A stretch of DNA of 43,500 bases, from contig WTKD01000006.1 in the NCBI GenBank assembly GCA_011524535.1, positions 1 through 43,500 on the forward strand, written 5' to 3'. Below, one piece after another: positions 12,813-37,683 of the stretch (within the stretch, counting starts at the first letter, position 1; every line of letters begins with the position of its first letter). Position numbers and translations under genes: made by a program. The notes beneath the pieces were generated by a model, which worked only from the letters and a program-made list of their open reading frames with translations, was not told the DNA's origin and ran no database searches. This DNA comes from Spirochaetaceae bacterium. GTDB taxonomy: Bacteria; Spirochaetota; Spirochaetia; WTKD01.

Positions 12813-14552
12813 TTAAGATCCGTACATCTCTGACATGTGGAAGATCGGCCAAAGCACCTCTCCGTCAAATTTCCAGGTTGAAGAAAAATCCCACTGTCCA
12901 AACGAAGATTGACTGACCTCAGAATCCGTTAACGGTTCTGCCCCTGAATTGCTTGTTTGTACTCCGATTCCCGTAATCGGTCTTCTCAAATTCCTACTGT
13001 TCAAAGGAGTTTGCGCATCAGCACTCCAATAACTGTTTTCGATGATATTCTTACCCGGAGCGTCACCCACTAAGCCCCCAATGTGTTGTTCACCTTGGAC
13101 TGCTCCTGCAGAATAGCTATTTATGATTGACTTTGATGCCTCGTGAGACCCCACCAATCCGCCTATAAATTGCACTCCTTTAACTTCTCCAAGTGCATAG
13201 GTATCGATAATGCTAGATTTTTTCACCTGCCCAACAAGACCACCTATAAATTGGACTCCTTCTACCTGGCCTGTTGCATAGCATTTTGTAATATCCTGTG
13301 TGGAAGTATGCATTCCAACGAGTCCTCCTACGAATTGGACTCCTTTTACTTTCCTGCTGGCCGCATAGCTATTAGAAACAACTACTGTAGACTTCATATG
13401 GCCAACCAAACCACCAACATTATTTACTCCATCTACTCTTACCTGAGCATACGCGTTTACGATTTGACTGCCCCCTTCAGATAATCCTATCGCACCTCCT
13501 ATATCACTTCCTCCAGCTTCCACTGTACCACTGACAAAAACGTTTCTTATCACGGCACTATGGATGTCTCCTGCCAAACCTCCAACTTTACTGTCTCCTT
13601 TCACGTATACGCTTGTTAACTGGAGATCATGTATTTCTCCTCCAGACTGACCATTGCGTTTTACACCACCAAAAAAGCCAACTCCATCTTCACTCGCTTG
13701 ACTAATAAAAACATTTCTTATTTTTTTATTATTGCCATCGAAGACCCCGGTAAATGGCTGATTATCCGTTCCAATTGGAAGAAATCCATTTCGTGCATAG
13801 GATTCTGATTGTCCTTGTGGGAGAGATTCAATACTTGGAAATTTGATCGAACCAGAAAGTTCATACCTATAATCAAGGACTTCTCTACTTGATCGAGATT
13901 TTTCGCTCAAGTATTCAAGATCGCGCCAGGTAGAAAGGAGATATATTGTAACGCCTCTTTCTTCTCTTGATCGTAATCCTGTTGTTTTCTCAAAAGCCCA
14001 CAGTTTTGCATTATTATCGGAGTCTCCATCGTCTTCATCATCGCCAGAGTTGCCGTTTCCTGAGCCTCCGCCATCACTTCCTCCAGACCCGTCACTTCCA
14101 CCAGTACTTCCGCCATCGCTTCCTCCAGACCCGTCACTTCCACCAGTACTTCCGCCATCGCTTCCTCCAGACCCGTCACTTTCACTAGTACTTCCGCTAT
14201 CACTTCCTCCAGACCCGTCACTTTCACTAGTACTTCCGCTATCACTTCCTCCAGACCCGTCACTTCCACCGGTACTTCCGCTATCACTTCCTCCAGACCC
14301 GCCCCCGTCATTATCACTATTGTTGCCCCCTAGGTCAGCCTCATTACTACCTTCACCGGTTTTTTCATCGGAATTATTTCCGCCGTTATCGCCAGCATCA
14401 TTCGAGGCTTCTGTCGTAGAGTTCACATCGTTTCTGTTCTCATTGCCCTCTAAACTACTGATCGTACTAGAGCTATTTCCTAACCCTTCACAAGTACTCA
14501 ATAAAAAAATCACACCTATACAGGCAACTAGCCATGCTGGACTTTTTTTCAC
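12813..14552 (-). CDS. GLUG-repeat surface lipoprotein with Gly/Ser/Asp tandem-repeat linker
   Basis: 579 aa, starting with GTG at 14552; AAGGAG lies seven bases upstream. The signal segment ends in LLSTC, a slightly unusual lipobox with Thr before Cys. Residues of about 60-180 are a Gly/Ser/Asp/Glu-rich linker containing a 14-residue tandem repeat. There follow the shared segment TWRDLEYLS, GFLPIGT, PFTGVFDGNNKKI and about ten GLUG repeats (VGGLVG, IGGLVG with NSYAAS or KCYATG). The end, QWDFSSTWKFDGEVLWPIF, mirrors the paralogue at 4016-5788. The likely layout is a lipid anchor, flexible stalk and solenoid head, which would fit adhesion or surface display; that role is inferred. Confidence 0.88.
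   Translation of the reverse strand: MKKSPAWLVACIGVIFLLSTCEGLGNSSSTISSLEGNENRNDVNSTTEASNDAGDNGGNNSDEKTGEGSNEADLGGNNSDNDGGGSGGSDSGSTGGSDGSGGSDSGSTSESDGSGGSDSGSTSESDGSGGSDGGSTGGSDGSGGSDGGSTGGSDGSGGSDGGGSGNGNSGDDEDDGDSDNNAKLWAFEKTTGLRSREERGVTIYLLSTWRDLEYLSEKSRSSREVLDYRYELSGSIKFPSIESLPQGQSESYARNGFLPIGTDNQPFTGVFDGNNKKIRNVFISQASEDGVGFFGGVKRNGQSGGEIHDLQLTSVYVKGDSKVGGLAGDIHSAVIRNVFVSGTVEAGGSDIGGAIGLSEGGSQIVNAYAQVRVDGVNNVGGLVGHMKSTVVVSNSYAASRKVKGVQFVGGLVGMHTSTQDITKCYATGQVEGVQFIGGLVGQVKKSSIIDTYALGEVKGVQFIGGLVGSHEASKSIINSYSAGAVQGEQHIGGLVGDAPGKNIIENSYWSADAQTPLNSRNLRRPITGIGVQTSNSGAEPLTDSEVSQSSFGQWDFSSTWKFDGEVLWPIFHMSEMYGS
14068..14312. repeat. 42-bp tandem repeat inside the GLUG lipoprotein gene
   Basis: The string CTTCCTCCAGACCCG recurs at 14077, 14119, 14161, 14203, 14245 and 14287, an exact 42-base period: five full units plus flanking partial ones. 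Each unit encodes 14 residues of type GGSDSGSTSESDGS or GGSDGGSTGGSDGS. Copy-number change would keep the reading frame and only alter linker length. Confidence 0.92.
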
Positions 14553-16325: not shown

Positions 16326-18962
16326 TTATAAATTCATATACTTTTCAAAAAAAATGGTTAATTTTTTAAACACGTTTCTCTTTTTCTTTGCCCGAGTTAA
16401 GTCGAGATAAGCATTCTGGTAATCTTGAAATTCACGTTCAGACAAAATTTCATTTCCGGCAAATTCGTCGAATGAAGTCAGAATGTTGCGTAGGCGTAGA
16501 ATCGCCCCCATAGTCTGATGAAATTTTTTTCAGCTTGCTCACTCTCGATAAACACAGGAAGAGGGAAACGTTTTTGCAGTTCGGTAATAAGGTCGACATA
16601 CCCTTTCTGAGGCTTGTAGTCTTTCTCCCAACCGTTATAGTATCCATGAAACGATTTCAGTAGGACAATACCCCCTGCTTCCTTATTGCCAAAAAGTGAA
16701 AATACGTCATTGATGACCCGCTCAAAATCGTTAAAACAAATGACGTTACCAAAAGTTTTGACAGAATTCAAAATTCAATTGCTGCGTGAAAAAGTCTATA
16801 ATAGACCATGGTGATACAGATTTTTATCTACCCCCAAGGTGTTCAGTGTGGTGGCATCGAAACCGTTCAGAAACATATTGACGACAATCAGCAAATCGAT
16901 TTCACGGTTTTTCATGTGAATTGATACGTCTTTGTAATGATTCTGAAACTTATCCACGCTGGTGTCGTAATTCGTACCGAAACCTTGGTTGTAATTGCTA
17001 ATGGCGCTATCAAGGAAATCACGAGAGGATTGATCCAGTCCTGCGGTATTAAAATACTCGTCGGGTAAGAGTTCATCTTCGCTTTCATATTCATTCGCAC
17101 CAAAACTATAGATGATGGCAATCTTGAATCCTGCATCACGTAATTAAAAAGTATGATAATATTTTTTAGCCACATCGATTGATGCTAACCGCAAAGATGG
17201 AGTTAAATCCTATTCAAGCGTACTTTATTTCTGATTTCTTTGATCTTTTTAGCGGCATCCTTTTCTTTATCAGCCGCCACATCGGCAGTATTCATTAATT
17301 TGCTGAAGTCATAAAAGCCGCCATCGCGTTCGGTTTTCTGTTCAAAATTCTCAAGGATGTAGTTCGTCACTTGTGCAATACGTTGCGGCGAACTGGTGAT
17401 CGCTTCACCATCGATAGCGTGAATTTTTTTGTCTTTACCCCGATCTTTCATTTTCAGAGCGTTGATGTAATCAATTCTAAACGGCACTATATTCTCATCG
17501 TTGATAAAATCACCAATGATGTACGCATGAAGTTTTTTCCCGAAAGCTTGCTCGGTTGTTTTAAGCTGTGGATTGCCGCCAGAAGCCGCGTTGACCGAGA
17601 AAATGAACGTGCCCGTGAAATAAAACAAATGGTAGTGCTTAAACGCTTTCGTGATTGCCGTGTGCATCTCTCCAAGTTGTGAGCGATGACATTCATCAGA
17701 TATCAACACATTATGGTCATTGAAAACACGATGTCCTTTATTTGCTGCAACAAACTTGGCTAATTTCTAGATGATGGTAATGATTATTTTCACGTTCGGG
17801 TCGGCGAGCTGTTTACTCAGAACAGCGGTGCTCGTATTGGAATTGACCGAGCTTTTTTTGAATTTGTCGTATTCCTTCATGTTTTATGTAGCCAAGTTCT
17901 TTTCGATCCTCTACAAACAATACCTTATCCATCCCTTCAAGCTGACCGGCAGGCTGAGCGGTTTTGAAACTAGTCAGCGTTTTACCACTGTCTGTGGTGT
18001 GACAGATATAGCCACCTGCATCGACTCCACCGAGTTGCCTATGATTAGTGACCATAGCAATATGATTCATAATGCGCTCTGTAGTCACTATCTGATAGGG
18101 GCGCATGACCAACAACAATGTGTCCGAAGTAAACACGCAATATTTTGTCAAAATCGACAGCAATGCATGCTTGGAGAAAAAGATTTTACTGAAATCAACC
18201 AGATCGACAATGCGTTTGCTCTTCGCATTTGTCCACCAGCAGGTAAACTCAAAGCTATTTCTCGTTTTCTTGCGTGATTTTTTACTCTGTTGTTCTTTTA
18301 AGTGTGCACTTCGAGTGGTATTGGAGTAATACTTGGTATGGGTGCCGTTAGAAATGACAAAGAGCTGTACGTGTTCAAATAAACCGCTGTCTGACCAGAA
18401 GCTATCGCGCTGGTAACGATTAATTTGGTTGAAGGCTTCGCGTATGACCACACCGCGCCGTTTTAATTCCACAGGCCCCATCGGCAACCCATTAATCAGA
18501 ACCGTCATATCATGCCGGTTTTTGCGTGCGCCTTCGGCTTCATATTGATTGATGATCTACACGCTGTTGTTGTGGACATTGGCCTTATCTGGAATCCGTA
18601 TATTTTTGGTGGAGCCATTATCGGGTTTAAGATTGAAGATATAATCATCTTGTACTTTGGTACTTTTTTCATCGATACCTTCGTTTTTATTGATCAGATA
18701 ATGCGTTACCATCTGCTGCCATCCGGCATCTGAAAACTCAAAGGCATTGAGTTTTGCCAGTTGAACGCGACAGTTTTGTAATAAGTTGTCGTTATGAGTA
18801 ATAGCGAGATACTCATAGCCGTTGGTTTGTAATAGCCGGATTAATTCGCGTTCCAATTCATATTCGGATTGGTGGCGTTCTCGATCGACACGATATTCCG
18901 AATATCTACTCGGCTACAACGGTGCTATTGGGGTTTTCGGCAATGGTTTTATGAATCGCCAT
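16326..18962 (-). pseudogene. hsdR: Type I restriction enzyme R subunit, multiply frameshifted
   Basis: Fragments in all three minus-strand frames line up with an EcoR124-type HsdR. From the start at 18962: MAIHKTIAENPNSTVVAE then stop; SEYELERELIRLL; DRxxHDxTVLINGLP and ELKRRGVVIREAFNQI; LLVMRPYQIVTTERI and GKTLTSFKTA (helicase region); ISDECHRSQLGE (DEAH-like box) and TGTFIF (a damaged TGTPIF); FKIAIIYSFGANEYE; REIDLLIVVNMFLNGFDA (motif VI region, altered) and finally LRLRNILTSFDEFA. At least five frame breaks or stops occur and the usual C-terminal domain is absent. Its start codon overlaps the hsdS stop (TAATG), so it was the last gene of an hsdMSR operon. Restriction must be lost. Confidence 0.92.
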
Positions 18963-20212
18963 TATGTCACCTCCCGAAAGGTCAGCAATCGGTCGCAATA
19001 ATATTTGTACTGTTTGCGCCGTGCAACAATCTCAGCCGATAACCCCGTGGAAATATCATTGACCAGTGCATCGAACCTGTCGAGAATGGCAACGATACGG
19101 GCTTGTTCATCAAGAGGAGGGATGGGGATTTTATATTTTCTTATAATTCTAGCATTTAGGTTAGATTGACTTCCTTGTCCAAGATTTTTTAATTTGCTGT
19201 ATTCATTTGAAATCCAGTAATAAACAAATTTATAGTTAGCTTTTTCATGGTCAATCTCTAGGTTACAGCATGCTTGGTTAGTTGTCAGCTCAATTGAGTT
19301 GGTCGCCGCTTTTGCAGCGGTTGCTCCATACATTGCAACAATCACACAGTTTTCTGGAATCCATTTTGCTGCAGAATTTTTTAGCCCTTTCTCTGTTATT
19401 GTCATGCTTGTTGATAAGATTGGCTTATAATCAATGTCTTGTGTTCTTAGCCAGGGTATCTGACCCCCATAGTAACTTTGATTGGTAGATTCTGGAGTGC
19501 CCCCAGAGCAAACTTTTTTGCAAATGCTTTCGATTGTCCCATACTCTACTCCATCCGGGCAATGCTTTTCTATCAACTCATCATTAAACGATAGGAGGAC
19601 CTTGCGATAATATTCGTACTGTTTGCGCCGAGCCTCTAGCTCCGCCTCTAGCTCCATCTCTAGCTCTGCCTCTAGCGTAGTGAAGCGATCAAGAATAGAA
19701 ACGATTTCTTGCTGGACTGACAGAGGCGGGATGGGGATTTTTATTTTACTGATGTTTTTCGCGCTTATACTTCTTACTTTAACTCCTGTTATATAAGGCC
19801 TTTTTTGTTGTTGAAATTCATCCGTTTGGAAGAAATAGGAAACATATTTAGGATTCAATGAATGTTTATAGATAAAAGTGTGGTTACTTATCGCAATTTC
19901 TTCATCACCTAACCATACAACCGCTTTGCATAAGTCTTCATCATCTTCACTAGTGTCGGTAATAATTAAGTCTCCTGTTTGAGCCTTTTTTGCTTTATTC
20001 GCGATAGCTGTAGATATAAAGGTTTTTGTCTGCTTTGCGTAAATCCCATAATGCGTATACAGTTGACCATAATGAATGCAACCAACTCCACTCTCGGTAA
20101 AATCTTTTTTCTGAAAACCATTCCCGTGAACAAACATGCCTACTTCTCCGAGTGTTTTCCACTCCACTCCATCCGGGCAATGCTTTTCTATCAACTCATC
20201 AATCTGGCTCAT
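18962..20212 (-). CDS. hsdS: Type I restriction-modification specificity subunit HsdS
   Basis: 416 aa with the usual two half-subunits. The first target-recognition domain begins ELIEKHCPDGVEWKTLGEVG and the second, about residue 215, begins ELIEKHCPDGVEYGTIESIC. Each is followed by a conserved segment: IPIPPLSVQQEIVSILDRF and IPIPPLDEQARIVAILDRF, then a helix (ARRKQYEYY / ARRKQYKYY). These long helices set the distance between the two half-sites. The first helix holds a four-residue repeat (LEAE LEME LEAE LEAR). It overlaps hsdM by 14 bases and hsdR by one. The subunit looks complete, so with HsdM it could still direct methylation. Confidence 0.94.
   Translation of the reverse strand: MSQIDELIEKHCPDGVEWKTLGEVGMFVHGNGFQKKDFTESGVGCIHYGQLYTHYGIYAKQTKTFISTAIANKAKKAQTGDLIITDTSEDDEDLCKAVVWLGDEEIAISNHTFIYKHSLNPKYVSYFFQTDEFQQQKRPYITGVKVRSISAKNISKIKIPIPPLSVQQEIVSILDRFTTLEAELEMELEAELEARRKQYEYYRKVLLSFNDELIEKHCPDGVEYGTIESICKKVCSGGTPESTNQSYYGGQIPWLRTQDIDYKPILSTSMTITEKGLKNSAAKWIPENCVIVAMYGATAAKAATNSIELTTNQACCNLEIDHEKANYKFVYYWISNEYSKLKNLGQGSQSNLNARIIRKYKIPIPPLDEQARIVAILDRFDALVNDISTGLSAEIVARRKQYKYYCDRLLTFREVT
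19632..19679. repeat. 12-bp repeat (x4) in the hsdS spacer helix
   Basis: CTAG recurs at exactly 12-base steps (19636, 19648, 19660, 19672) in GAGCTAGAGGCG-type units that encode Leu-Glu-Ala-Glu. The repeat lies in the central helix of HsdS between the two target-recognition domains. Confidence 0.9.
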
Positions 20213-21779
20213 GCTCAGCTCCCTCTAAATCAGCAATGATGGCATCAATCTGCGTGCGTAATTCACTTTGACGGGCAGCAATGTGTTCAATCTCAATATT
20301 CAGCGTTGTGATGTCGATCACTTCCTGGGTGTCTTCCGATTCCACATACGTACCGACGCTAATATTGTAATCCTTGTCGGCGATCTCCTCGTGTTTTGCT
20401 AGATAAGAGAAGTGTTTGATTACCGTACGTTTGGCGTAGCAGTCCAGTATTTTCTGCATATGCCCGTCATTAAGCTTGTTTTTCGCCGAACCACGTACGA
20501 ATTCCTGAGTAGCATCGATAAACAAAACCTGGCTGTCGAACTTGTTCTTTTTCATCACTAAGATACAGGTGGCAATGGTAGTGCCATAAAACAAATCGGT
20601 TGGCAGTTGGACTACGGCGTCGACATAGTTGTTATCGACCAGATACTTACGGATTTTTTGCTCCGCTCCGCCGCGATACATTACGCCCGGGAAAGAAACA
20701 ATGGCCGCTGTCCCATTCGTGGCCAGCCATGACAGAGCGTGCATTACAAACGCCAAATCAGCCTTGGATTTTGGCGCAAGTACACCCGCCGGCGTAAAAC
20801 GATCATCATTGATCAAGATTGGGTTGGCATCACCATCCCATTTAATTGAATACGGTGGATTGGATACGATTGCTTCAAAAGGTCCCTCATTCTCATATTG
20901 TGGATCTGTGAGCGTATTCCCGTGGGCAATATCAAACTGTTCGTAGTTAATATCGTGCAAGAACATATTGATACGACAAAGGTTGTAGGTGGTGATATTG
21001 ATTTCCTGACCAAAGAACCCATTGCGGACGCATTCCTTGCCCAGCACCTTGGCGAACTTCAACAGTAATGAACCCGAGCCACAGGCGGGGTCATAGACTT
21101 TATCGATTTCCTGTTTATCAACCACGGTGATACGCGCCAGCAGTTCGGAGACCTCTTGTGGGGTAAAGAATTCACCACCCGATTTGCCCGCATTGGCGGC
21201 ATACATGGTCATCAGGTATTCATAGGCATCGCCAAACAAGTCAATGACGTTACCGTCATAATTGCCGATGGGTAGATCGCCGATAGCATTCAGCAGTTTC
21301 ACCAATGTTTCATTGCGTTTGGCTACCGTGGCACCCAGCTTATTGCTATTGACATCCAAGTCGTCAAATAGTCCCTCCATATCGCTTTCGCTATCGGTGC
21401 CTTGAGCAGAGGTCCCAATGTTGTTAAACACCGTTTCCAAGGTCTCATTTAGATTGGCGTCGGTAGCAGACTGCTTGCGAACATTTTCAAATAGTTCGCT
21501 GGGATGTATAAAAAAGCCTTTTTCCTCTAAGATAAGATCGCGAGCACGCTTTGCCTCGCTATCGCTTAAACAAGCATAATTGAAATCGTTCTCGCCCGCT
21601 TCTTGCTGTTTTTTATTGATGTAGGCACTCAAATTTTCACAGATGAAACGATAGAACAATATGCCCAGCACATACTGCTTAAAATCCCAACCATCAACAC
21701 TCCCGCGCATATCATTGGCGATACGCCAGATGGTTGCGTGCAATGCTGAGCGTTCTTGTTCTTTTTGTGTATCAACCAT
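20199..21779 (-). CDS. hsdM: Type I restriction-modification methyltransferase subunit HsdM
   Basis: 526 aa from the ATG at 21779, preceded by AAGGAG nine bases upstream (the open frame extends to 21815). The N-terminal helical domain has HATIWRIANDMRGSVDGWDFKQYVLG, typical of EcoR124-type HsdM. The methyltransferase core has GGEFFTPQEVSELLARI, VYDPACGSGSLLLKF (motif I, S-adenosylmethionine binding) and VSNPPYSIKW (motif IV NPPY, N6-adenine). The C-terminal part keeps the partner-binding helices. Length is normal and all motifs are intact. It heads the hsdM-hsdS-hsdR series, and a small HTH gene lies just upstream on the same strand. Confidence 0.95.
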   Translation of the reverse strand: MVDTQKEQERSALHATIWRIANDMRGSVDGWDFKQYVLGILFYRFICENLSAYINKKQQEAGENDFNYACLSDSEAKRARDLILEEKGFFIHPSELFENVRKQSATDANLNETLETVFNNIGTSAQGTDSESDMEGLFDDLDVNSNKLGATVAKRNETLVKLLNAIGDLPIGNYDGNVIDLFGDAYEYLMTMYAANAGKSGGEFFTPQEVSELLARITVVDKQEIDKVYDPACGSGSLLLKFAKVLGKECVRNGFFGQEINITTYNLCRINMFLHDINYEQFDIAHGNTLTDPQYENEGPFEAIVSNPPYSIKWDGDANPILINDDRFTPAGVLAPKSKADLAFVMHALSWLATNGTAAIVSFPGVMYRGGAEQKIRKYLVDNNYVDAVVQLPTDLFYGTTIATCILVMKKNKFDSQVLFIDATQEFVRGSAKNKLNDGHMQKILDCYAKRTVIKHFSYLAKHEEIADKDYNISVGTYVESEDTQEVIDITTLNIEIEHIAARQSELRTQIDAIIADLEGAEHEPD

Positions 21780-21819
21780 TTTTCGGTTTCTCCTTAATCG
21801 ATACTTTTCGCTCAACGAT

Positions 21820-26253: not shown

Positions 26254-27270
26254 ATCCAGTCGCTATCTCGAGGACTGACATTCAGTGACGTATGTCTTGT
26301 CCCGCAATTTAATAACGTACCATCTCGTACGGAACCGCTACTCGAAACATGGCTAACAAGGAATAGAAAACTAGGATTACCCATCGTACCCGCAAACATG
26401 GATTCATGTGTATCCCTCGAATTGGCGACCATTTTCGTTGCGCATGGCGGAATACCGATCTTTCACCGATTTGCTCCCTTAGAAACCCAGCTGGGTTGGG
26501 TTAAAAAATTGAAGGAAAATATGTTCATCTCCTGTGGTATACAAGACGAACACATCGCCCAGGCAAGAAAACTCCTCGATGCCGGGGCTGGAGGTGTATG
26601 TATCGACGTTGCCCATGGACATTCCCTAAAAATGCTCCAGCATATAGAAGCACTGAAATCATCCCATCCAGACAAAGATATTATAGCGGGGAACGTCTGT
26701 ACCCCCATGGCATATCAAGACCTCGTCAACGCAGGAGCGGATGCGGTAAAGGTTGGCATAGGCGCCGGGGCTGCCTGCACCACGCGCATTGTTACCGGAT
26801 TTGGGGTCCCACAATTTACCGCAATATACGAATGTGCGAAGGTTGCAGAAAAACTCCGTATTCCTCTTATCGCCGATGGAGGCATTTCCTCAAGCCGTGA
26901 AATAGTTCTAGCTATAGCAGCCGGGGCCAGCTCGGTGATGATTGGCAAACTGTTTGCTCTTACAGAAGAAAGCGCTGCAAAAAAAAGAGATCACAATGGT
27001 GAACGCCAAGCTCTATACCGGGGTCAAGCCAGCAAACATTTTCAAGACGAATATTATGGCGGAATGAAAAAAGGAACCGTATCGGAAGGAATCGATTTTT
27101 GGAAGAAAGTGTCCGGCAGCACAGAAGAATTGATACACGAACTTCTGGGCGGTATACGTAGCGGACTCACCTATGGCGGATCACGGAACATAAAAGAGCT
27201 CCAAAGAAAAGCCGAGTTCATGGAAGTAAGCCCTTCCTACGCAGAAGAAAGCAAACCGAGAACCACATAA
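26254..27270 (+). CDS. CBS-less IMP dehydrogenase/GMP reductase family enzyme
   Basis: About 338 aa. The barrel starts with [21 protein letters not shown] and continues with [37 protein letters not shown] (the flap with catalytic Cys), [11 protein letters not shown] and MIGKLFA, and ends with [21 protein letters not shown]. No CBS pair lies between the barrel strands, so it has the size of a GMP reductase or of the rare CBS-less IMP dehydrogenases. Motifs do not settle which reaction it does. The first ATG in frame (26398) would cut off the conserved first strand. No ATG, GTG or TTG lies upstream before an in-frame TAA near 26200, yet a perfect AGGAGG precedes the first codons, so start at ATC (26251/26254) or a point mutation must be assumed. 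Confidence 0.85.
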
Positions 27271-27380: not shown

Positions 27381-27800
27381 ATGCCTAGGCAAAAACTGTA
27401 CGGAACGACAAATGATTCAATACGATCGCTAATTATCAAAAAGCATAAACGAAGACTTAGAGATTACAGCCTCCCCATTTCTATATTGGCCTCTACCCTC
27501 GCTTTCACTTTGTATGTCATCAGGAACATATTAATAGTTGTTCTTCAGCGTTTTTCACTGGACTCCTTTGGAAGCCTCACCTACATGATAGCCTTCATTG
27601 GCGTAATTGCTATCACCGCCTTGGTTGTTTTATCTCTAATCACCAGTCTCTTGGCCACAGCTTCTGCCACTCCCCATAGTCGCGCCTTTACATCGGCTAT
27701 TATTTCTATTTCATTGACGGTCTTATCCGCGATCTTTCTTTCATCATTAACTGAGACGTTTCTCGAACTCACTACAGCGGTATTGAGACCCCTTCTCTAA
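27381..27800 (+). CDS. Small membrane protein of unknown function
   Basis: 139 aa. A basic N-terminal 28 residues (KKHKRRLRDY) is followed by three long hydrophobic segments of about 20 residues each (near 30-52, 65-90 and 103-122), so it is probably an inner-membrane protein with a cytoplasmic basic N-terminus. I do not recognise a family. A consensus-like promoter directly before the ATG supports it as a real gene. It lies between the IMPDH-like gene and the NadR-like gene, 79 bases before the latter. Confidence 0.6.
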   Translation: MPRQKLYGTTNDSIRSLIIKKHKRRLRDYSLPISILASTLAFTLYVIRNILIVVLQRFSLDSFGSLTYMIAFIGVIAITALVVLSLITSLLATASATPHSRAFTSAIISISLTVLSAIFLSSLTETFLELTTAVLRPLL

Positions 27801-27845
27801 AAACTGGCTCTAAACAGCGCGATACATCGCCTCCTATTTCTTTCT

Positions 27846-27874
27846 CTGACAAAATACATTCTCCATGACACAAT
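27846..27874 (+). promoter_or_regulatory. Promoter of the NadR-like gene
   Basis: CTGACA (27846-27851), 17-base spacer, CACAAT (27869-27874). The ATG at 27880 follows after five bases without a Shine-Dalgarno. Confidence 0.45.
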
Positions 27875-27879
27875 AAGTC

Positions 27880-28764
27880 ATGACCGGTCTCATTCTTGGC
27901 AGATTTATCCCGCCACACAACGGACACCTACAATTGATCAACACCGCCCTGGCACAATGCACACGGGTATACCTCGTAATTTGCTCTCTAAAAACCGATG
28001 CAATCCCTGCCGGCTCTCGCATATATTGGATTAAACAGTTGTTCGCACAAGAAATCGCCATATCATCCCTCGTGCTCATTCATATAGACAAGGAACTACC
28101 TGCTGCGCAGAGAAATCGCCCTCACGCCCCCGAAATTTGGGCCGGAGCCATCACCGAGCACATCCCCGGCCATATAGATGCCGTTTTTTCATCCGAACCC
28201 TATGGCGAAGAATTATCGCATGCGCTTGGGGCGCAATGCATTCAATTTGATACCAATCGCCCTCATGTCCCCGTTTCTGCATCAAACATACTCGCCGACC
28301 CTCAGCACCATTGGGAGCACGTTCCGATAAATGTCCGTCCCTATTTTGCAAAAACAGTATACTCGCGCTGCCCCAACATGTGCTACACAACATTCATCCA
28401 TGTACCAAGCTCCCCATTGGCAGTGCATATCTCGGAGATCTTATCTATTCCCGAATACAACGAATCATCCCCAAAGTCATGGGCCTTTGTATCCTCTCTG
28501 GATATCCCAAAACTCCTCGAACTTTCCTCTAGTATCGGTGCTGGGATCATCTCCACGCTTCTATCTACTGAGAACATCAGAACAACCAAATGCTTGCCTT
28601 TTTCCACAGAAGAAACTCGATCCAAACAAGAGCCTCTCTCCCTGACTGCCAGTATCGAACAATCAAAAATATATCTAACAATGATAACCAATCACATACT
28701 TACCGTATTACGCGATGTATATTCTATACATATAAGCGTTCCTAATTATCCGCTCGATGAATAG
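27880..28764 (+). CDS. NadR-like nucleotidyltransferase with a degenerate kinase region
   Basis: 294 aa. Residues 1-158 are a nicotinamide-nucleotide adenylyltransferase domain of NadR type: GRFIPPHNGH (7-16, the GxxxPxHxGH nucleotide-binding motif), RPHAPEIWAGAI, then VSASNILADPQHHWEHVPINVRPYFAKTV (two pieces of one conserved segment, about 132-160), corresponding to the ISGA.IR.NP..YWEYIP..V.PFF.RTV part of NadR. In NadR a ribosylnicotinamide-kinase P-loop (GGESSGKST) follows at once. Here the sequence reads YSRCPNMCYTTF, and no Walker A or later kinase motif is seen in the remaining 135 residues. It may still make NAD from NMN, while the kinase part has been lost or reshaped. No HTH regulator domain is present. 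Confidence 0.75.
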   Translation: MTGLILGRFIPPHNGHLQLINTALAQCTRVYLVICSLKTDAIPAGSRIYWIKQLFAQEIAISSLVLIHIDKELPAAQRNRPHAPEIWAGAITEHIPGHIDAVFSSEPYGEELSHALGAQCIQFDTNRPHVPVSASNILADPQHHWEHVPINVRPYFAKTVYSRCPNMCYTTFIHVPSSPLAVHISEILSIPEYNESSPKSWAFVSSLDIPKLLELSSSIGAGIISTLLSTENIRTTKCLPFSTEETRSKQEPLSLTASIEQSKIYLTMITNHILTVLRDVYSIHISVPNYPLDE

Positions 28765-28817
28765 ACTCTTATCTATGGGGCAAACGATTATTGCAAAAAT
28801 GTAGTGTGTATAGCTGA

Positions 28818-30101
28818 TTATGGGCGGGTACGTTTACGATCCCTGGGAAATGCAGACGCTTCTTTTACATTTTTTAATCTCAAGATTTTTTGCGCAAGCC
28901 GTTCAAGACCAATAGCAAATCCGCCATGGGGTGGGCATCCATACGAAAATATTTTAACATAATCTCTCAGCGAAGATTCTGAAAGCCCATTGACCGAGAT
29001 AGACTCCTTCAGCATTGTTGTGTCGTGTATACGCTGACCGCCCGTTGTAATCTCCACCCCTCCATACAGGAGGTCGAAACTACGCGAATATTTTTCCTTC
29101 GGATATGTGTAGAATGGTCTTTTTCGTATTGGGAATTCGTATACGAACACGGCAGGAACATTGTGTTCTTCTTGAGCCCACAAGCATAATTCACGTTCAG
29201 CCTCTGGGTCGATATCAAAGACAACCTTTTTTGTGCGTTTTTTTAACAATTTTTTTGCCTCGGCGTAAGTACATCTCGGTATCTTAGACAGCGCCTCACT
29301 GTCTGGTACCGTTACATTCCACATATCCAAAGCGGGTGCACACCGCTCTGCAACGGTAGATATTATATGCTGCAACAACTGCGTCTCAAGGTCCATGAGA
29401 TCGTGTTCATCCTGTATGAATGCCATCTCAACATCAAGAGAAATATATTCATTGAGATGCCGAGAAGTTTCATGTTTTTCCGCACGGTAGGCGGGACCTA
29501 TTTCAAAAACCCGCTCCAAACCCGATGCAACCATCGCCTGTTTATAGAACTGTGGCGATTGTGCCAGATACACGACCTCATCGAAATAGGAAACAGAAAA
29601 CAACCCTGTTCCCCCTTCGGTCCCCGTTCCTATAAGTTTGCTCGTTTTTATTTCGGTAAAGCCATTCGAACGCAAAAATGATCCAAAGGCGTCGATGATC
29701 ACGGATTCTAATTCAAAAATACTCCGCACCATTGGATGTCGAAGACTGCTAATACGCTGATCGAGTAGCAATTCTAGGCTATAGGATTCAGCCGATTGTG
29801 CGGGATTTACCGGAACGGGTTCATAGGAAACCCCGAGAATCTCGGTATTATCTACATGGATCTCTATTCCACTAGGAGAACGCTCGTTTGAAACCACCGT
29901 TCCCCAGACACGAATAACGGATTCCTGAGCAAATGTCTGACTAGAATCATTGTACACAAGCTGTACAACACCACTCCGATCACGGAGCAAGACAAACTGT
30001 ATTTTTCCAAAATCGCGGATACGGTGCACCCATCCCTCGAGGCATATCCTTGAATTTAGATGCTTACCGACATCGTTAGCGAGAATTCTCTGTTCGTTCA
30101 T
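28818..30101 (-). CDS. aspS2: Archaeal-type aspartyl-tRNA synthetase (AspRS2), probably non-discriminating
   Basis: 427 aa, the size of archaeal AspRS without the bacterial GAD insertion. The anticodon-binding OB fold has LEGWVHRIRDFG and VLLRDRSGVVQ. Class II motif 2 is FEIGPAYRAEKHETSRHLNEY, and motif 3 is GFAIGLERLAQKIL with SAFPRDRKRTRP at the end. Residue 26 is His (GWVH). Published archaeal work links Trp at this site to Asp-only charging and His to relaxed charging of tRNA-Asn. The gene overlaps gatB by 26 bases and is the last of a gatCAB-aspS2 operon, which fits charging tRNA-Asn with Asp for amidation by GatCAB. A separate bacterial AspRS is at 35917. Relaxed specificity is an inference. 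Confidence 0.93.
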   Translation of the reverse strand: MNEQRILANDVGKHLNSRICLEGWVHRIRDFGKIQFVLLRDRSGVVQLVYNDSSQTFAQESVIRVWGTVVSNERSPSGIEIHVDNTEILGVSYEPVPVNPAQSAESYSLELLLDQRISSLRHPMVRSIFELESVIIDAFGSFLRSNGFTEIKTSKLIGTGTEGGTGLFSVSYFDEVVYLAQSPQFYKQAMVASGLERVFEIGPAYRAEKHETSRHLNEYISLDVEMAFIQDEHDLMDLETQLLQHIISTVAERCAPALDMWNVTVPDSEALSKIPRCTYAEAKKLLKKRTKKVVFDIDPEAERELCLWAQEEHNVPAVFVYEFPIRKRPFYTYPKEKYSRSFDLLYGGVEITTGGQRIHDTTMLKESISVNGLSESSLRDYVKIFSYGCPPHGGFAIGLERLAQKILRLKNVKEASAFPRDRKRTRP

Positions 30102-31518
30102 CTACTACCCTTTGGAGTATTTCTTTACCTCGCTGAGGTTGAATCTGCCCCTTACTCAGGCGCATCAATGCCCCCATAAGAAAATCGACTCCCTTGGCGG
30201 AGCCCGATTTGATCTGCTCAATAATCGTAGGATTGGTATCACAAACTTCTTCAGCCATTGTTTTTATCGAAACTTCGTCGGTGATCAATGTCCATCCTTC
30301 CGCCTTGAGAATATTTCGAGGAGACCCCTTCCCCTCGGTCATGGCATGTATCAACTGCTTCGCTTTGCGTCCGCTAATCAATTCTTCTTGTAATAATTCA
30401 AAAAACTCTTTTAAATCTTCAAACCGTATGGGCACATCGCCAAGCGTCGATCCTACAACGCTCAAGGAGCCACGCAGATCACCAGCCAGCCATTGGGCAA
30501 CCGCCTGTGCTTCCAGACCGGACTCACACAATCTATAGAACATATCGCCAAATTCTTTTTCGTCGACAAATATCATGGCAACTTGTTCGCTGAGCCTATA
30601 TTGTTCGAGTAAATCGACCAAGCGCGAAACCGGCAAAACAAGTTTTTTTTCTTTTGCAGCCTTTATCACATCTTGAGAAATCGAAACTTCGGGTATATCT
30701 GGTTCTTGAAAATAGCGATAGTCATGCACCTCTTCCTTGCTTCTCATCCCCTCGGTAATATCCTTGTTGGCATTCCATAGCCTTGTTTCAAGTTTCACAG
30801 GCATGCCTTCATTCAAAAGTTCGGTTTGCCGCTCTATTTCAAACAGAAGCGCCTTTTTTACAAAATGAAAACTATTGAGGTTCTTTATTTCTACTTTTGC
30901 CCCCAAAGTCTTGGCATCTTTGCTCAACGAAATGTTAGCATCGCAGCGGAAAGAACCTTCTTCCATCGTTGCATCGGAAACATCAAGGTATTGGATCGTT
31001 TTGTGGAATTGCCGAATCATTGCTTCGGTTTCCTCGGGGCTGCGCAATTCGGGCTGCGTTACAATTTCAACCAGCGGATATCCAGCGCGATTGTAATCAA
31101 CATAGCTTTCACTCTCAGCATGTACCAACTTTCCAGCATCTTCCTCTAAATGGAGCTCCCGAATAGCAATATGGCGGAGCTCTCCCGCATAATAATACGA
31201 AAATTTTCCCTCTCCACCAACAGGCTGACGATACTGACTAATTTGATAATTTTTTGGCATATCTGGATAGAAATAATTTTTCCGATCAAAGACCAAGGTT
31301 TCTGCCAACTTACACTGTAAAGAATCGATTATTTGGATCGCCTTAACAATCGCTTCTTTATTTGGAACGGGAAGAGTCCCTGGCAGCCCCATACACACGG
31401 GACAAATATACGCGTTTGCTTCTTCCCCAAACTGCGCTCTGCACCCGCAAAACATTTTGGTGTTAGTATTCAGGTGTACGTGTATCTCAAGCCCAATATG
31501 CACACAATATGACATCAT
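30076..31518 (-). CDS. gatB: Asp-tRNA(Asn)/Glu-tRNA(Gln) amidotransferase subunit B
   Basis: 480 aa. It has the GatB hallmarks: VHIGLEIHVHLNTNTKMFCGC, CPVCMGLPGTLPVPN (zinc and tRNA-binding part), RKNYFYPDMPKNYQISQY, ELHLEEDAGKLVH, VDYNRAGYPLVEIVT and RCDANISL. It ends in the YqeY-like helical tail (DFLMGALMRLSKGQIQP). GatB phosphorylates the misacylated aminoacyl end and passes ammonia from GatA to it. ATGATG overlaps the stop of gatA by four bases, a sign of translational coupling, and gatB overlaps aspS2 by 26 bases. Length is normal. Confidence 0.97.
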   Translation of the reverse strand: MMSYCVHIGLEIHVHLNTNTKMFCGCRAQFGEEANAYICPVCMGLPGTLPVPNKEAIVKAIQIIDSLQCKLAETLVFDRKNYFYPDMPKNYQISQYRQPVGGEGKFSYYYAGELRHIAIRELHLEEDAGKLVHAESESYVDYNRAGYPLVEIVTQPELRSPEETEAMIRQFHKTIQYLDVSDATMEEGSFRCDANISLSKDAKTLGAKVEIKNLNSFHFVKKALLFEIERQTELLNEGMPVKLETRLWNANKDITEGMRSKEEVHDYRYFQEPDIPEVSISQDVIKAAKEKKLVLPVSRLVDLLEQYRLSEQVAMIFVDEKEFGDMFYRLCESGLEAQAVAQWLAGDLRGSLSVVGSTLGDVPIRFEDLKEFFELLQEELISGRKAKQLIHAMTEGKGSPRNILKAEGWTLITDEVSIKTMAEEVCDTNPTIIEQIKSGSAKGVDFLMGALMRLSKGQIQPQRGKEILQRVVDERTENSR

Positions 31519-32918
31519 TCACTCCCCATCATTCCTAACGATGTATATCCCGAAGGTCTCATGATTTTCTCTTCTGGGCGCATACTTTGAACCAAGGAAA
31601 ATAGTTTTGATTCACTGTGTGCCGGCCCTACAAATTGCATACCTACGGGCAATCGCTCGTCTTCTCCCATTGGGAATGACAATGCCGGCAAGCCGCCAAG
31701 ATTCGCCAAGACATTAAAAATGTCTCCGTATTTTATGGCCACTTCATCCAAACTATCTTCGACTGAAAACGCTTCGATCGGATATACCGGAAGAAATACC
31801 GCATCATAGGAAGCAAACAACCTTCGAAACGCGCTAACAAGATCTCGCCGGACGGCCAAGGCCTTGCCGTAATATTGATCATAAAACCCGCTTCTCAGTA
31901 CATAAGTTCCGAGTAATGTTCGAAACACAACCTCATTGCCAAACGCCTGACTACGCGTATCAAATAAATACTCGAGATAGGTGTCCGCCTGCCCCTTGCG
32001 TTTTCCGTAACGTATGCCATCGTACCGCGCAAGGTTACTAGAAGCCTCTGCCGTTGCAATAATATAGTAGGCTGCTATAGCATTTTCTATCAGGGGAAAA
32101 TCTACCGTCTCAATTTCATATCCTTGGGCAAGGAGCATGTCGCATCCTTTGCGGTATACTCTATGCGTTGATTCGCTCAGAATGCCCCGATCAAACGAAA
32201 GCACCGCAATGCGTGCCGATAATGATTTTTTTTCTGTTGATGGAGAAGATGAAGAATCGCGTGCGTTGGAGATATCCACCGAGCTAGCATCCCGCGGATC
32301 CATTCCTTTACTGAGAGAAAAAATCTGCTCAATATATTCAAGACTTTCACCCAATACCCCAATACAATCGAGTGAGGAAGCAAAAGCAACCAAGCCGAAA
32401 CGAGACAAGGCTCCGTATGTGGGCTTCAATCCATATACGCCGCAAAAAGAAGCAGGCTGCCGAACAGATCCTCCTGTATCAGAGCCAAGTGCCAAGGGAG
32501 CCATTCCAGACGCAACCGATGCTGCCGAACCTCCACTTGAACCGCCGGCACTCCGAGAAAGATCCCAGGGATTTTTTGTTTTTCCATGAATGCTATGAGT
32601 TGTTGAAGCTCCCATGCCGAATTCATCTAAATTCGTTTTTCCTACAACATGGAGACCTGCATCAAGTAATCGCTCAACCACCGTTGCATTGTAAACAGCC
32701 TTGTAGTTTGCCAATATAGGAGAACCGCAGGTGAGGGGTAGCCCAGAAACAGATATGTTATCCTTCACTAAAATTGGAATTTCACTCAATGGGTGAGTCG
32801 TGGGACGAGCTGGAATAGCGTCGCAATCGAAATGGCAAATCGATCGAATGTTTTTGTTCATGGCTTCGACCGCTGCCCGGTATTGTTCTTTATGCCGAGA
32901 AGTAACACCACTCCACAT
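31515..32918 (-). CDS. gatA: Asp-tRNA(Asn)/Glu-tRNA(Gln) amidotransferase subunit A
   Basis: 467 aa amidase-signature enzyme. The catalytic triad is visible as Lys52 (ILVKDN), cis-Ser127 (GGSSGGSAA) and Ser151 (DTGGSVRQPA), with the same spacing as in Staphylococcus GatA. It releases ammonia from glutamine or asparagine and passes it to GatB. KTNLDEFGMGAS and LKPTYGALSRFGL are GatA-specific. It starts two bases after the gatC stop and overlaps gatB by four bases. Slightly shorter than the usual 480-490 aa, but nothing essential is missing. Confidence 0.97.
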   Translation of the reverse strand: MWSGVTSRHKEQYRAAVEAMNKNIRSICHFDCDAIPARPTTHPLSEIPILVKDNISVSGLPLTCGSPILANYKAVYNATVVERLLDAGLHVVGKTNLDEFGMGASTTHSIHGKTKNPWDLSRSAGGSSGGSAASVASGMAPLALGSDTGGSVRQPASFCGVYGLKPTYGALSRFGLVAFASSLDCIGVLGESLEYIEQIFSLSKGMDPRDASSVDISNARDSSSSPSTEKKSLSARIAVLSFDRGILSESTHRVYRKGCDMLLAQGYEIETVDFPLIENAIAAYYIIATAEASSNLARYDGIRYGKRKGQADTYLEYLFDTRSQAFGNEVVFRTLLGTYVLRSGFYDQYYGKALAVRRDLVSAFRRLFASYDAVFLPVYPIEAFSVEDSLDEVAIKYGDIFNVLANLGGLPALSFPMGEDERLPVGMQFVGPAHSESKLFSLVQSMRPEEKIMRPSGYTSLGMMGSE

Positions 32919-33260: not shown

Positions 33261-34604
33261 TTATCGCTGTTGATGCCTCTCCTCTAACTCTTCAAGCACA
33301 TCATTCCAGCTAACCCCCTCGGCCAATAAAAGTACAAGCATGTGGTAGAGCATGTCGCTGCATTCTAAAACGAGCTCTTTTTTATCCTGCGCCAAGGCAA
33401 TTTCTATCCCCTCTTCTGCAAGTTTCTTGCGTATGACCTGAGTCCCCTCTTTCAACAAATACGTAGTATAACTACCTTCGCTTGGATTTTTTTGTCGTGT
33501 TTTAATCGTCTCCCACAAGGCTTCCATAACCGCTGCCTTATGAGGTGATGTATCATTCGAGATAATGGGCTGGCTGTCCTTGCCCGCATTACTTGGAATC
33601 TCTGCAGGAGTAGAAACAAATAGTGCATCGAATGGCGGTGCGTTCTGACTAGCCACCTCATACCACTGTAGATGATCGGCTATAGCTCCGAAAACAAATC
33701 GCTCTTTGTATACCTCTTCATAGGGAAGCACACGACCGGTTTTTTCGTGTACTACCCATAACGTTTCTTCTTCAAGTGTCTTTTTGTAGGATTTCTCATT
33801 TCCCATCGCATAGATGAGCCTTTTTCTCAACCTATCGCTGTTTCGAATAACAATGGGTTTATATTTTGTGTGTTGCTCGTTAAGCAAATCCTCGAGAGTT
33901 ATTCGATTTTCATAAATCGCCTTGCCCATGATAACACCCGATAATGATGCTTCTCCCTGCGAAAAGACCTTCCGCACATCTTCATCAGACCCAATCCCTC
34001 CCGATAAAATAACCGAAGCCCCTTGTTCCTGCGCAAGCAATGTGATCTCATTTGTTCGTGTGATATCTGGCCCTTCGAGCGTTCCATCTTTCGCAATATT
34101 GGTAAAAATTATTTGCTCTACGCCCCAAGAACATACCTGATTTACCAAGGAATTTGTTTTATATTGAGCATTCATACTCCATCCAGCGATATACGCATTC
34201 CCGTCTTTCTCATCTATCCCTGCAATAATTCTCCCCGGATACGCATGAACCCACGATTGCACTTCACGCTGAGATTTAACAAGCGCAGAGCCAACGATAA
34301 CATAATCGATTTCTAAGGCGAGTAATTCTTCAACATCTGCCTGGGTCCTCACCCCTCCACCAACTTCAAGAATCATAGACGAAGCAGATCGCATACGTCT
34401 AATAACCGAACGATTATTACCCGTAGAAAAAGCAGCATCAAGATCAACCACATGCACACGGTGTATTCCCACCGAGGCATACGCTTTTATTTGCTCTACT
34501 GGGTCTACCTCATAAAATGTTGCTTCTTCTCTTCGCCCTTTATGCAATCGGACGCATTTTCCATCCAAAAGATCTATCGCAGGAATGAGTGATTTATAGC
34601 TCAT
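33261..34604 (-). CDS. HisA-HisE fusion with a degenerate HisI-like middle
   Basis: 447 aa. Residues 1-240 are HisA, the ProFAR isomerase barrel: IPAIDLLDGKCVRL with Asp11, VGGGVRT, AGIDEKDG with Asp131, NIAKDGTLEGPD and LSGGIGSDEDV. Residues of about 358-447 are a phosphoribosyl-ATP pyrophosphatase (HisE): EALWETIKTRQ, SYTTYLLKEG, KLAEEGIEIALA and ECSDMLYHMLVLL. Between them, residues 250-335 keep the outline of HisI (KRLIYAMGNEKSYKKTLEE, then TGRVLPYEE). They lack the CDxDxD and CHTG...C residues that bind Mg and Zn in phosphoribosyl-AMP cyclohydrolase; there is no Cys at all. It overlaps the upstream DtxR-family gene by 11 bases. Three histidine steps seem once joined, with one lost. Confidence 0.88.
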   Translation of the reverse strand: MSYKSLIPAIDLLDGKCVRLHKGRREEATFYEVDPVEQIKAYASVGIHRVHVVDLDAAFSTGNNRSVIRRMRSASSMILEVGGGVRTQADVEELLALEIDYVIVGSALVKSQREVQSWVHAYPGRIIAGIDEKDGNAYIAGWSMNAQYKTNSLVNQVCSWGVEQIIFTNIAKDGTLEGPDITRTNEITLLAQEQGASVILSGGIGSDEDVRKVFSQGEASLSGVIMGKAIYENRITLEDLLNEQHTKYKPIVIRNSDRLRKRLIYAMGNEKSYKKTLEEETLWVVHEKTGRVLPYEEVYKERFVFGAIADHLQWYEVASQNAPPFDALFVSTPAEIPSNAGKDSQPIISNDTSPHKAAVMEALWETIKTRQKNPSEGSYTTYLLKEGTQVIRKKLAEEGIEIALAQDKKELVLECSDMLYHMLVLLLAEGVSWNDVLEELEERHQQR

Positions 34605-35916: not shown

Positions 35917-37683
35917 GTGCGGACCCTCATTGCGGATATTTCCGAACAATCGACCGAAAAGCCCTTTACTATCAAAGGGTGGATACACCAGCATCGAAGC
36001 CATGGCTCTGTCATATTCTTCAACCTACGTGACCACACTGGAATTATACAAATCGTTGCAGACGAAAGCTCTCCTCAAGAAGCACACGATATAGCCCAAA
36101 CCCTCCGGCTTGAATATTGCGCGCGTATAACCGGTGTATTACGAAATCGTCCGGACTCCATGATAAATGAAACCGAAGCCCGCGGAAATATCGAACTCTT
36201 GGCAAAGGAAATTCATATATATTCACAGTCTCCTCCATTGCCTTACCATATCCACGAATATGCGCGAGAGGAATCTCGTTTGCTTCATCGATACCTCGAT
36301 ATTCGTTCAAAAAACATGCAGCAAGCATTGAGTCTGAGAAGCAAGGCCTCACAAATATGTCGAAACTTCCTGCATACCGCAGAATTTCTTGAAATAGAAA
36401 CCCCAACCATGATCCGCTCGACCCCCGAAGGGGCACGTGATTTTTTGGTTCCTAGTCGGTTGCATGCGGGCTCTTTTTATGCACTGGCTCAAAGCCCCCA
36501 ACTATACAAACAAATGCTCATGGTTGGCGGTGTACATCGCTATATGCAATTCGCAAGATGTTATCGCGATGAAGACATCCGAGGAGACCGACAACCCGAA
36601 CATACGCAAATCGATATCGAAATGTCATTCCTAGAAGATGAAACCGAACTCCATACCATTATAGAATCTATGGTTTCAGAACTCTTTTCGGCATGCACCA
36701 ACGCACCCCTCTCTACCCCCTTCCCACGCCTCACATACGAAGAAATTATGAACAGATTCGGAAGCGACAAAGCCGATATACGCACCGATTATGCATTGGT
36801 CACCTTTTCTCAATTGGCAAAAAAAATAGAATTTGGCATATTCACCAATGCCCTGTCTTACGATGAAGGTGTGATAAAAATGCTGCGTATCCCAGAAGGG
36901 GCTTCTACATCACGAAAACAAATCAGTGAACTAGAAGATCGAGCAAAACAACATGGTGCGAAGGGATTGGCCTGGACAAAAATTGGATCTGCCGAGTGCG
37001 AGGGAGGAATAGCCCGCTTCTTGAACCCAGTGTACTCCGAGATGGTGGCAGAATATTCCTTAGAACCAGGAGATCTTTTACTCTTTACTGCAGACTCATG
37101 GACAACCGCCTGCACATCTCTCGGCGCGGTACGATCCCTGTTTGTAGAGAAAGAAATTCAGGAACATCCTGAAAAATATCCTGCCTATGCGTTTGCCTGG
37201 GTAACCGATTTTCCTCTTTTTGAAAAAACCGACCAAGGAACATGGACCGCCTTACATCATCCATTTACCCGCCCCCAGGACAGAGATCTTGAACATCTCG
37301 AGACCAATCCAGGAAGAGTCCGAGGACATCTATACGATCTTGTCTGCAATGGGTATGAACTCGGATCGGGCTCTTTACGTATACACAGCAAAGAAATGCA
37401 ACAACGCATATTCTCCGTCATGCAAATAGAACAAGTAGAAGCAGAGCAACGTTTTGGATTCTTCTTAAATGCCCTTCAATACGCACCCCCTCCCCATGGC
37501 GGTATCGCGTTGGGATTTGATAGATTGTGTATGCTTCTCATGAATAAATCCAGCATCCGTGATGTAATTGCTTTTCCTAAGAACAACCAAATGGCCTCAT
37601 CGCTTGATCATGCTCCATCCCCAGTACACGAAGAACAACTCAATGAATTACACATGAAACTAACAAAACCCACCACCGAATAA
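35917..37683 (+). CDS. aspS: Aspartyl-tRNA synthetase, bacterial type (AspRS1)
   Basis: 588 aa, GTG start two bases after the preceding stop. The OB-fold anticodon domain has IKGWIHQHRSHGSVIFFNLRDHTGIIQ, followed by class II motif 1, motif 2 (YMQFARCYRDEDIRGDRQPEHTQID, in two overlapping conserved pieces) and motif 3 (HGGIALGFDRLCMLL). A GAD-type insertion domain fills about 280-420. The flipping-loop DFLVPSR and catalytic QSPQLYKQ are intact. This is the usual bacterial enzyme and may be the Asp-tRNA(Asp)-specific one, next to the AspRS2 at 28818. It is followed 31 bases later by serA. Confidence 0.97.
   Translation: MRTLIADISEQSTEKPFTIKGWIHQHRSHGSVIFFNLRDHTGIIQIVADESSPQEAHDIAQTLRLEYCARITGVLRNRPDSMINETEARGNIELLAKEIHIYSQSPPLPYHIHEYAREESRLLHRYLDIRSKNMQQALSLRSKASQICRNFLHTAEFLEIETPTMIRSTPEGARDFLVPSRLHAGSFYALAQSPQLYKQMLMVGGVHRYMQFARCYRDEDIRGDRQPEHTQIDIEMSFLEDETELHTIIESMVSELFSACTNAPLSTPFPRLTYEEIMNRFGSDKADIRTDYALVTFSQLAKKIEFGIFTNALSYDEGVIKMLRIPEGASTSRKQISELEDRAKQHGAKGLAWTKIGSAECEGGIARFLNPVYSEMVAEYSLEPGDLLLFTADSWTTACTSLGAVRSLFVEKEIQEHPEKYPAYAFAWVTDFPLFEKTDQGTWTALHHPFTRPQDRDLEHLETNPGRVRGHLYDLVCNGYELGSGSLRIHSKEMQQRIFSVMQIEQVEAEQRFGFFLNALQYAPPPHGGIALGFDRLCMLLMNKSSIRDVIAFPKNNQMASSLDHAPSPVHEEQLNELHMKLTKPTTE

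Follow-up and report, generated by a model that had tools for sequence, protein, structure and literature searches.

The nadR-like gene analyzed here, from a Spirochaetaceae bacterium, probably encodes the NMN adenylyltransferase (NMNAT) of a spirochaete NadR subfamily that has no P-loop, a protein that would recycle internal NMN and whose kinase half would be an eroded pseudokinase. We give this reading a probability of roughly 0.58. NadR is a two-step enzyme, with kinase and adenylyltransferase halves acting in sequence. The gene lies in a stretch of 43,500 nucleotides that was analyzed as a whole (the window), in a 1.42-Mb genome assembled in 14 contigs and 96% complete, whose listed relatives are of the same class only. 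The gene and its conserved flank are described in Table 1.

Table 1. The nadR-like gene of the window, the parts of its product, and the conserved flank.
Feature	Position	Strand	Basis
nadR-like gene, 294 aa, single open frame without a stop	27880..28764	+	
NMN adenylyltransferase domain, residues 1-160, with PHNGH (HxGH) motif	27880..28359	+	TIGR01526, AF2, Foldseek
Codon 138, Leu in place of the ISxTxxR Arg of relatives	28291..28293	+	alignment rows
Tail, residues 161-294, at the position of the riboside kinase; no P-loop, no recognizable kinase; Ser-rich (16%)	28360..28761	+	Pfam, AF2, composition
aspS2, non-discriminating aspartyl-tRNA synthetase, convergent neighbor	28818..30101	-	NF003483, 513 bits
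gatB, second gene of the conserved flank	30076..31518	-	profile match, neighbor comparison
gatA, third gene of the conserved flank	31515..32918	-	also in L095

The N-terminal module is a NadR-type NMN adenylyltransferase

The N-terminal part of the protein is matched by the NadR model TIGR01526 over residues 2-160, with an E value of 2.2e-29. The score of 102.7 bits is below the cut-off of 341.15 because only half of the profile is covered. NadR of known structure (1lw7) matches with an E value of 4e-12, and no match extends past residue 160, whether to a NadR model or to one of the three best solved NadRs. AF2 predicts residues 1-160 with a pLDDT mostly above 90, and in a Foldseek search the best match among those listed is again 1lw7. 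The HxGH motif is present, 29 of the 33 columns that are near-invariant in the clade are retained, and the codon signal of the NMNAT part is 13.5 bits in frame. These results bear out the first-pass annotation of this DNA, which had matched the adenylyltransferase half to NadR.

When the NMNAT half was compared with four relatives, the value obtained was 0.425, versus 0.566 for those four among themselves. The same comparison of divergence gave 0.56-0.59 (window) versus 0.71 (relatives) for aspS2, and 0.28-0.45 versus 0.58 for gatB. On these figures, the NMNAT half is diverging about as fast as the neighboring aspS2 and gatB, and an unusually rapid decay of this half is unsupported.

As for the ISxTxxR motif, it reads VSASNIL in the window protein, with Leu at position 138. 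The Arg is found in all 30 other P-loop-less rows. A mixed set of 28 rows has it in 26, and only the window protein and the NadR of Sphingomonas vulcanisoli (L140) depart from it. This Arg probably contacts the ATP phosphates, a role known from work on the NMNAT of M. thermoautotrophicum; an R136A structure of that enzyme (1m8j) is among the Foldseek matches of the window protein. ISSTxxR is named as a conserved motif of these enzymes in PMC12599879, and it is not found in the main text of PMC7136026. The Sphingomonas protein has an intact P-loop and ISGAEIL in place of ISxTxxR, i.e., the same Arg-to-Leu change as in the window protein. Given that Leu is found here even in a NadR whose P-loop is intact, inactivity does not follow from R138L, which was rejected as unique proof of a dead enzyme. 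We infer that NMN is the substrate and that the NMNAT site works despite R138L.

The P-loop is missing throughout a spirochaete subfamily

A profile search of 394 genomes of the window's class found subfamily members in 36, distributed over nine family codes (f1, f27, f31, f34, f38, f40, f41, f43, and f44). The P-loop is absent from all 35 readable tails, the window protein's included. In G295, a contig end cuts the gene before the tail, which is thus unreadable, while the tail of G112 is cut near its end and was read as far as the contig goes. In a protein search of 98 genomes, its own among them, 13 had a match, and five genomes other than the window's have the same type of P-loop-less tail; a first contig scan with the window protein alone as query found nothing. 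A GTDB-based collection, which overlaps the 394-genome set so that the counts were not summed, gave 42 loci; all 29 spirochaete loci with readable tails were without a P-loop, and all 12 loci of other groups or of an unplaced bacterium had one (L142 is cut). Normal NadRs with GxxxxGK[ST] occur in other genomes of the class, at 13 loci (ten different genes) as well as at L059, L060, and L148-L150. Loss of the P-loop is not specific to the window cell, the only one that the first-pass annotation had considered; it is common to all readable members of the subfamily (35 of 35). No description of a P-loop-less or pseudokinase NadR was found in the open-licence literature (titles and abstract openings, among the best matches of longer lists).

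Stand-alone NadR-type NMNATs, in which the frame ends after the NMNAT domain, are found at L008/L052 (G063), L053 (G168), and L057 (G221). Their open frames are 165 aa long in G063 and G168, and 210 aa in G221. They represent a second route of kinase loss within the same class.

In the tree, all 34 other P-loop-less rows cluster together (98/94), and the window protein is placed outside it, at an unresolved fork and on a long branch of 1.6-1.9 changes per column. In trees of the NMNAT half only, for which the bootstrap had not settled, the free tree requires the P-loop-less label to change four times, and a single P-loop-less clade is not rejected (p-AU 0.39). The rows nearest to the NMNAT half of the window protein are L002 and L003, with 49% identity to L002 over 150 columns. 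Three genomes with a P-loop-less copy (G187, G295, and G259) also have a normal NadR, and these normal NadRs group with those of G024 and G017 (98/88). The P-loop-less protein is thus a separate lineage and can coexist with normal NadR. The normal copy of G259 (L100) diverges from its relatives soon after the P-loop and may be broken or misassembled.

The aspS2-gatB flank of the nadR-like gene is shared with L083, L085, L087, and L095, and extends to gatA in L095, which supports the orthology of the window gene. The non-discriminating enzyme beside gatB and gatA is one of two aspartyl-tRNA synthetases in the window, the other (35917-37683, + strand) having a GAD domain. Directly upstream of the nadR-like gene lies a frame of 139 aa (27381-27800, +) that looks hydrophobic and matches nothing in Pfam or NCBIfam at E≤0.1. 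It is preceded by a 290-aa IMPDH/GMP-reductase-like protein (26398-27270, +) whose match begins at profile position 42 of 345, suggesting either a short N terminus or a start elsewhere. Farther away, a 447-aa protein (33261-34604, -) is a fusion of HisA (residues 6-236) and phosphoribosyl-ATP pyrophosphohydrolase (362-444), with about 125 residues between them that have no Pfam match at E≤0.1. A type I restriction locus (17203-21815, -) encodes HsdM, HsdS, and a 168-aa piece that matches the SNF2/ResIII ATPase part; HsdR is therefore possibly broken. Two large proteins (4016-5788, +, and 12813-14552, -) have the GLUG motif as their sole Pfam match at E≤1e-5.

Recycling of internal NMN as the probable role in NAD metabolism

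The window genome encodes a separate NadD (G000:C4:13563-14105), which scores 113.8 bits against a cut-off of 112.45 and has both HxGH and SSSEIR. NadE and the nicotinate phosphoribosyltransferase PncB are also present. PncB is the sole PF04095 match of the genome, so a NadV replacing the kinase was rejected. NadA, PnuC, and the NMN deamidase PncC gave no match in this genome, in which, at 96% completeness, single absences are no proof. These are the outcomes of the search for NAD genes that the first-pass annotation had advised. A separate riboside kinase was also rejected, the AAA_28 search having returned one unconvincing match of 22.6 bits in a 399-aa frame. The profile search gave no second NadR-type NMNAT in the genome, the other match being a CoaD-like protein of 158 aa. 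From this gene content, the main NAD supply looks like nicotinate, via PncB, NadD, and NadE. The missing P-loop, the lack of a PnuC match, and the lack of a convincing AAA_28 kinase support the loss of riboside salvage, and the window protein cannot be expected to phosphorylate nicotinamide riboside.

Among the 36 P-loop-less genomes, PnuC is present in one (G187, which also has a normal NadR), versus 10 of the 14 genomes with normal NadR only, a contrast that rests on related genomes and is close to one evolutionary event, with some of the 36 being less than 80% complete. The P-loops of all 14 were read, and those without PnuC are G222, G234, G137, and G056. Wherever PnuC occurs (11 genomes), the normal NadR gene is no more than about 1 kb away. 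All 8 genomes with normal NadR that were tested have PncC; the window genome and four of 13 other P-loop-less genomes do not. Since nine of the 13 do have PncC, its absence does not track the subfamily.

NAD-dependent DNA ligase is general in bacteria. This enzyme releases NMN and is inhibited by it, and either PncC or an NMN adenylyltransferase recycles the NMN (PMC3680494 and PMC3855486). In the reading we favor, NMN freed inside the cell, for example by this ligase, would be recycled to NAD, the most likely step being conversion of NMN and ATP to NAD by the window NMNAT. Where PncC is missing, such an adenylyltransferase would offer a route back to NAD. In the subfamily's ancestor, the kinase half would have turned into a pseudokinase, of which the window genome has a vestigial, probably disordered tail left. 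The first-pass annotation had suggested a switch from nicotinamide riboside to NMN salvage. The loss of riboside salvage stands, but salvage of external NMN found no backing (PnuC, the only transporter family searched, was not found), and recycling of internal NMN is more likely than uptake of external NMN.

We regard as unlikely the reading in which both activities have been lost in a small-genome cell, the protein is decaying or non-enzymatic, and NAD is made only from nicotinate via PncB, NadD, and NadE. R138L, the eroded tail with its low-confidence prediction, the genome size of 1.42 Mb, and the existence of the nicotinate route all speak for such decay. However, the frame is intact, most near-invariant clade columns are kept (29 of 33), and the NMNAT half evolves at about the pace of aspS2 and gatB. 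Moreover, the Leu is shared by the Sphingomonas protein, which has a P-loop, and no PncC match was found, so that other means of NMN removal are not evident.

Relatives appear to keep a folded kinase half

Tail profiles built from 34 P-loop-less and 13 normal rows (ten different genes) align to each other in hhalign with a probability of 98.9% and an E value of 1.8e-17. The alignment of the subfamily profile with NadR of known structure spans positions 3-307 of 309. AF2 produced a confident two-domain model for one relative (L115, pLDDT 88.5), which superposes onto H. influenzae NadR (1lw7) with a Z of 28.2 and an rmsd of 2.9 for 312 aligned residues. The tail region of this model also matches thymidylate kinases (Z 14). 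When the sequences are aligned, GNDVDRRV stands opposite GGESSGKS of NadR, which shows that Walker A is gone in L115, and VTTD stands opposite IDTD. According to this model and these alignments, the subfamily is a NadR pseudokinase lineage, in which several relatives appear to keep a folded but inactive kinase half.

Purifying selection seems to act on both halves in six non-overlapping close pairs (L020/L021, L026/L027, L028/L029, L037/L038, L041/L045, and L047/L048), where dN/dS ranges over 0.04-0.20 in the NMNAT half and over 0.07-0.30 in the tail, which has the higher value every time. The only close pair of normal NadRs at hand (L010/L012) gives 0.09 and 0.19, respectively. In more distant pairs, where dS is high, tail dN/dS reaches 0.99. 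The median ratio of tail to NMNAT identity is 0.54 in the subfamily (528 pairs, 33 proteins), versus 0.99 in normal NadRs (45 pairs, ten proteins). Purifying selection on the relatives' tails makes some role there likely. For the window protein, the new role of the tail suggested in the first-pass annotation has no such support, its tail having neither a confident fold nor a homolog.

We also surveyed the neighborhoods of 16 loci of relatives, several of which are cut by contig ends. On one side, neighbor families recur in 11, 10, and 8 loci; those identified on this side in L085 are a polyphosphate kinase (Ppk1), a Ppx/GppA exopolyphosphatase, and a ROK kinase. On the other side, families found in 7 and 8 loci are NfeD-like and SPFH/Band-7 proteins in L085. 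These identities come from scanning the L085 copies only. None of these genes, neither Ppk/Ppx/ROK nor NfeD/SPFH, is found beside the nadR-like gene of the window.

These recurrent neighbors, together with the folded tail predicted for a relative and the tail dN/dS of 0.07-0.30 in the close pairs, would suit a regulatory or partner-binding pseudokinase that senses ATP, NAD, or a protein, perhaps tied to the polyphosphate or SPFH/NfeD neighbors, the window tail being a remnant. We think this improbable, because those neighbors are missing beside the window gene and its tail has no confident fold. In addition, the Ppk1 side is divergently transcribed, purifying selection may merely maintain the solubility of a two-domain protein, and tail dN/dS exceeds that of the NMNAT half in all six pairs. 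It is just as doubtful, in the more specific form of this idea, that a selected pseudokinase controls the NMNAT, as an adenine-nucleotide/NAD sensor or as a dock for polyphosphate or SPFH/NfeD, and that the window tail is a late stage of its melting.

The tail of the window protein is unrecognizable and probably eroded

In the window protein, a Pfam search with the tail alone gave nothing at E≤0.1, and no homolog of it besides its own gene was found in the 394 genomes, so that the tail was rejected as a known domain. No P-loop pattern exists in the six frames of positions 27701-29000, and no alternative P-loop was found elsewhere in the gene. The first-pass annotation was thus right that the kinase P-loop is gone and that no Walker motif follows. 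It had also proposed structure prediction, in which AF2 gives a pLDDT below 50 over residues 167-201 and 215-294, i.e., no confident fold. Against the profile of the clade tails, residues 161-294 score -2.1 bits, a value equaled or exceeded by 323 of 500 shuffles, and a detectable relationship to these tails is unsupported; the score is 3.9 bits when linker residues 149-160 are added. The tail, eroded past recognition, is probably disordered. That it descends from the pseudokinase we infer through orthology and synteny, and not from its own sequence.

The codon signal of the tail is weak (1.9 bits in frame), and one minus-strand frame of the tail reaches 9.4 bits. Nevertheless, when the tail was shuffled 20,000 times by mononucleotide, only 28 of the products were free of stops, so the open tail exceeds chance. 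We consider it very unlikely that the kinase was deleted and replaced by unrelated read-through sequence. The weak codon signal, the lack of resemblance to clade or canonical tails, and the stand-alone NMNATs of G063, G168, and G221 are what this scenario has in its favor. However, the window gene shares orthology and synteny with two-domain relatives, its tail is of similar length, and the relatives' tails also diverge fast, as seen from their median identity ratio of 0.54.

A real kinase hidden by a sequencing or assembly error is close to refuted, for despite the draft state of the genome (14 contigs), the six frames hold neither a P-loop nor a convincing match to a kinase profile, and other subfamily members have no P-loop either. 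A search with profiles of degenerate and of true NadR kinase tails gave the reading frame, taken together with about 20 linker residues, a score of 3.3 bits, which two of 900 translations of shuffled DNA exceed; the remaining frames are either unreported or at -0.9 bits or below. A simple frameshift thus does not restore the kinase; a frameshift or sequencing error was rejected by these six-frame searches with shuffled controls and by the P-loop loss across the subfamily. The first-pass annotation had named a recognizable kinase fold with an alternative P-loop, or an error restoring the kinase frame, as findings that would speak against it, and neither was found.

Discussion

The protein described here has its closest known counterpart in bifunctional NadR, as represented by H. 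influenzae NadR (1lw7), L. lactis NadR (PMC7221760), 8x7f, and 6gye/6gyf/6gzo. It shares with these the N-terminal NMNAT, the HxGH motif, and the linker, and the model of its relative L115 can be superposed along its whole length. Normal NadR is described with Walker A and B (PMC7221760). In contrast, Walker A is absent in all readable subfamily members, the window tail is unrecognizable, and PnuC has no match. The window protein also has no N-terminal extension that could hold a DNA-binding domain. We therefore class the subfamily as a NadR derivative carrying a pseudokinase and not as bifunctional NadR, because the results for the Arg motif, Walker A, an AAA_28 match, and the TIGR01526 cut-off were all negative.

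Other systems are more distant. The archaeal-type NMNAT of M. thermoautotrophicum (1ej2/1m8j) and NadM have the same single NMN adenylyltransferase fold (TMt 0.70-0.72 for 1ej2 and 1m8j), but the window protein has an extra tail of 134 aa and is closer in sequence to NadR. NadD, the NaMN adenylyltransferase, catalyzes the same type of reaction and is encoded separately in the window genome. The stand-alone NadR-type NMNATs of the class are likewise without a working kinase, but their frames stop after the NMNAT domain.

These findings have two implications. First, annotation as "NadR" in these spirochaete genomes would be wrong as evidence for salvage of nicotinamide riboside. Second, a subfamily that seemingly keeps the kinase fold under selection without the catalytic loop would offer a natural test of a non-catalytic role for this fold.
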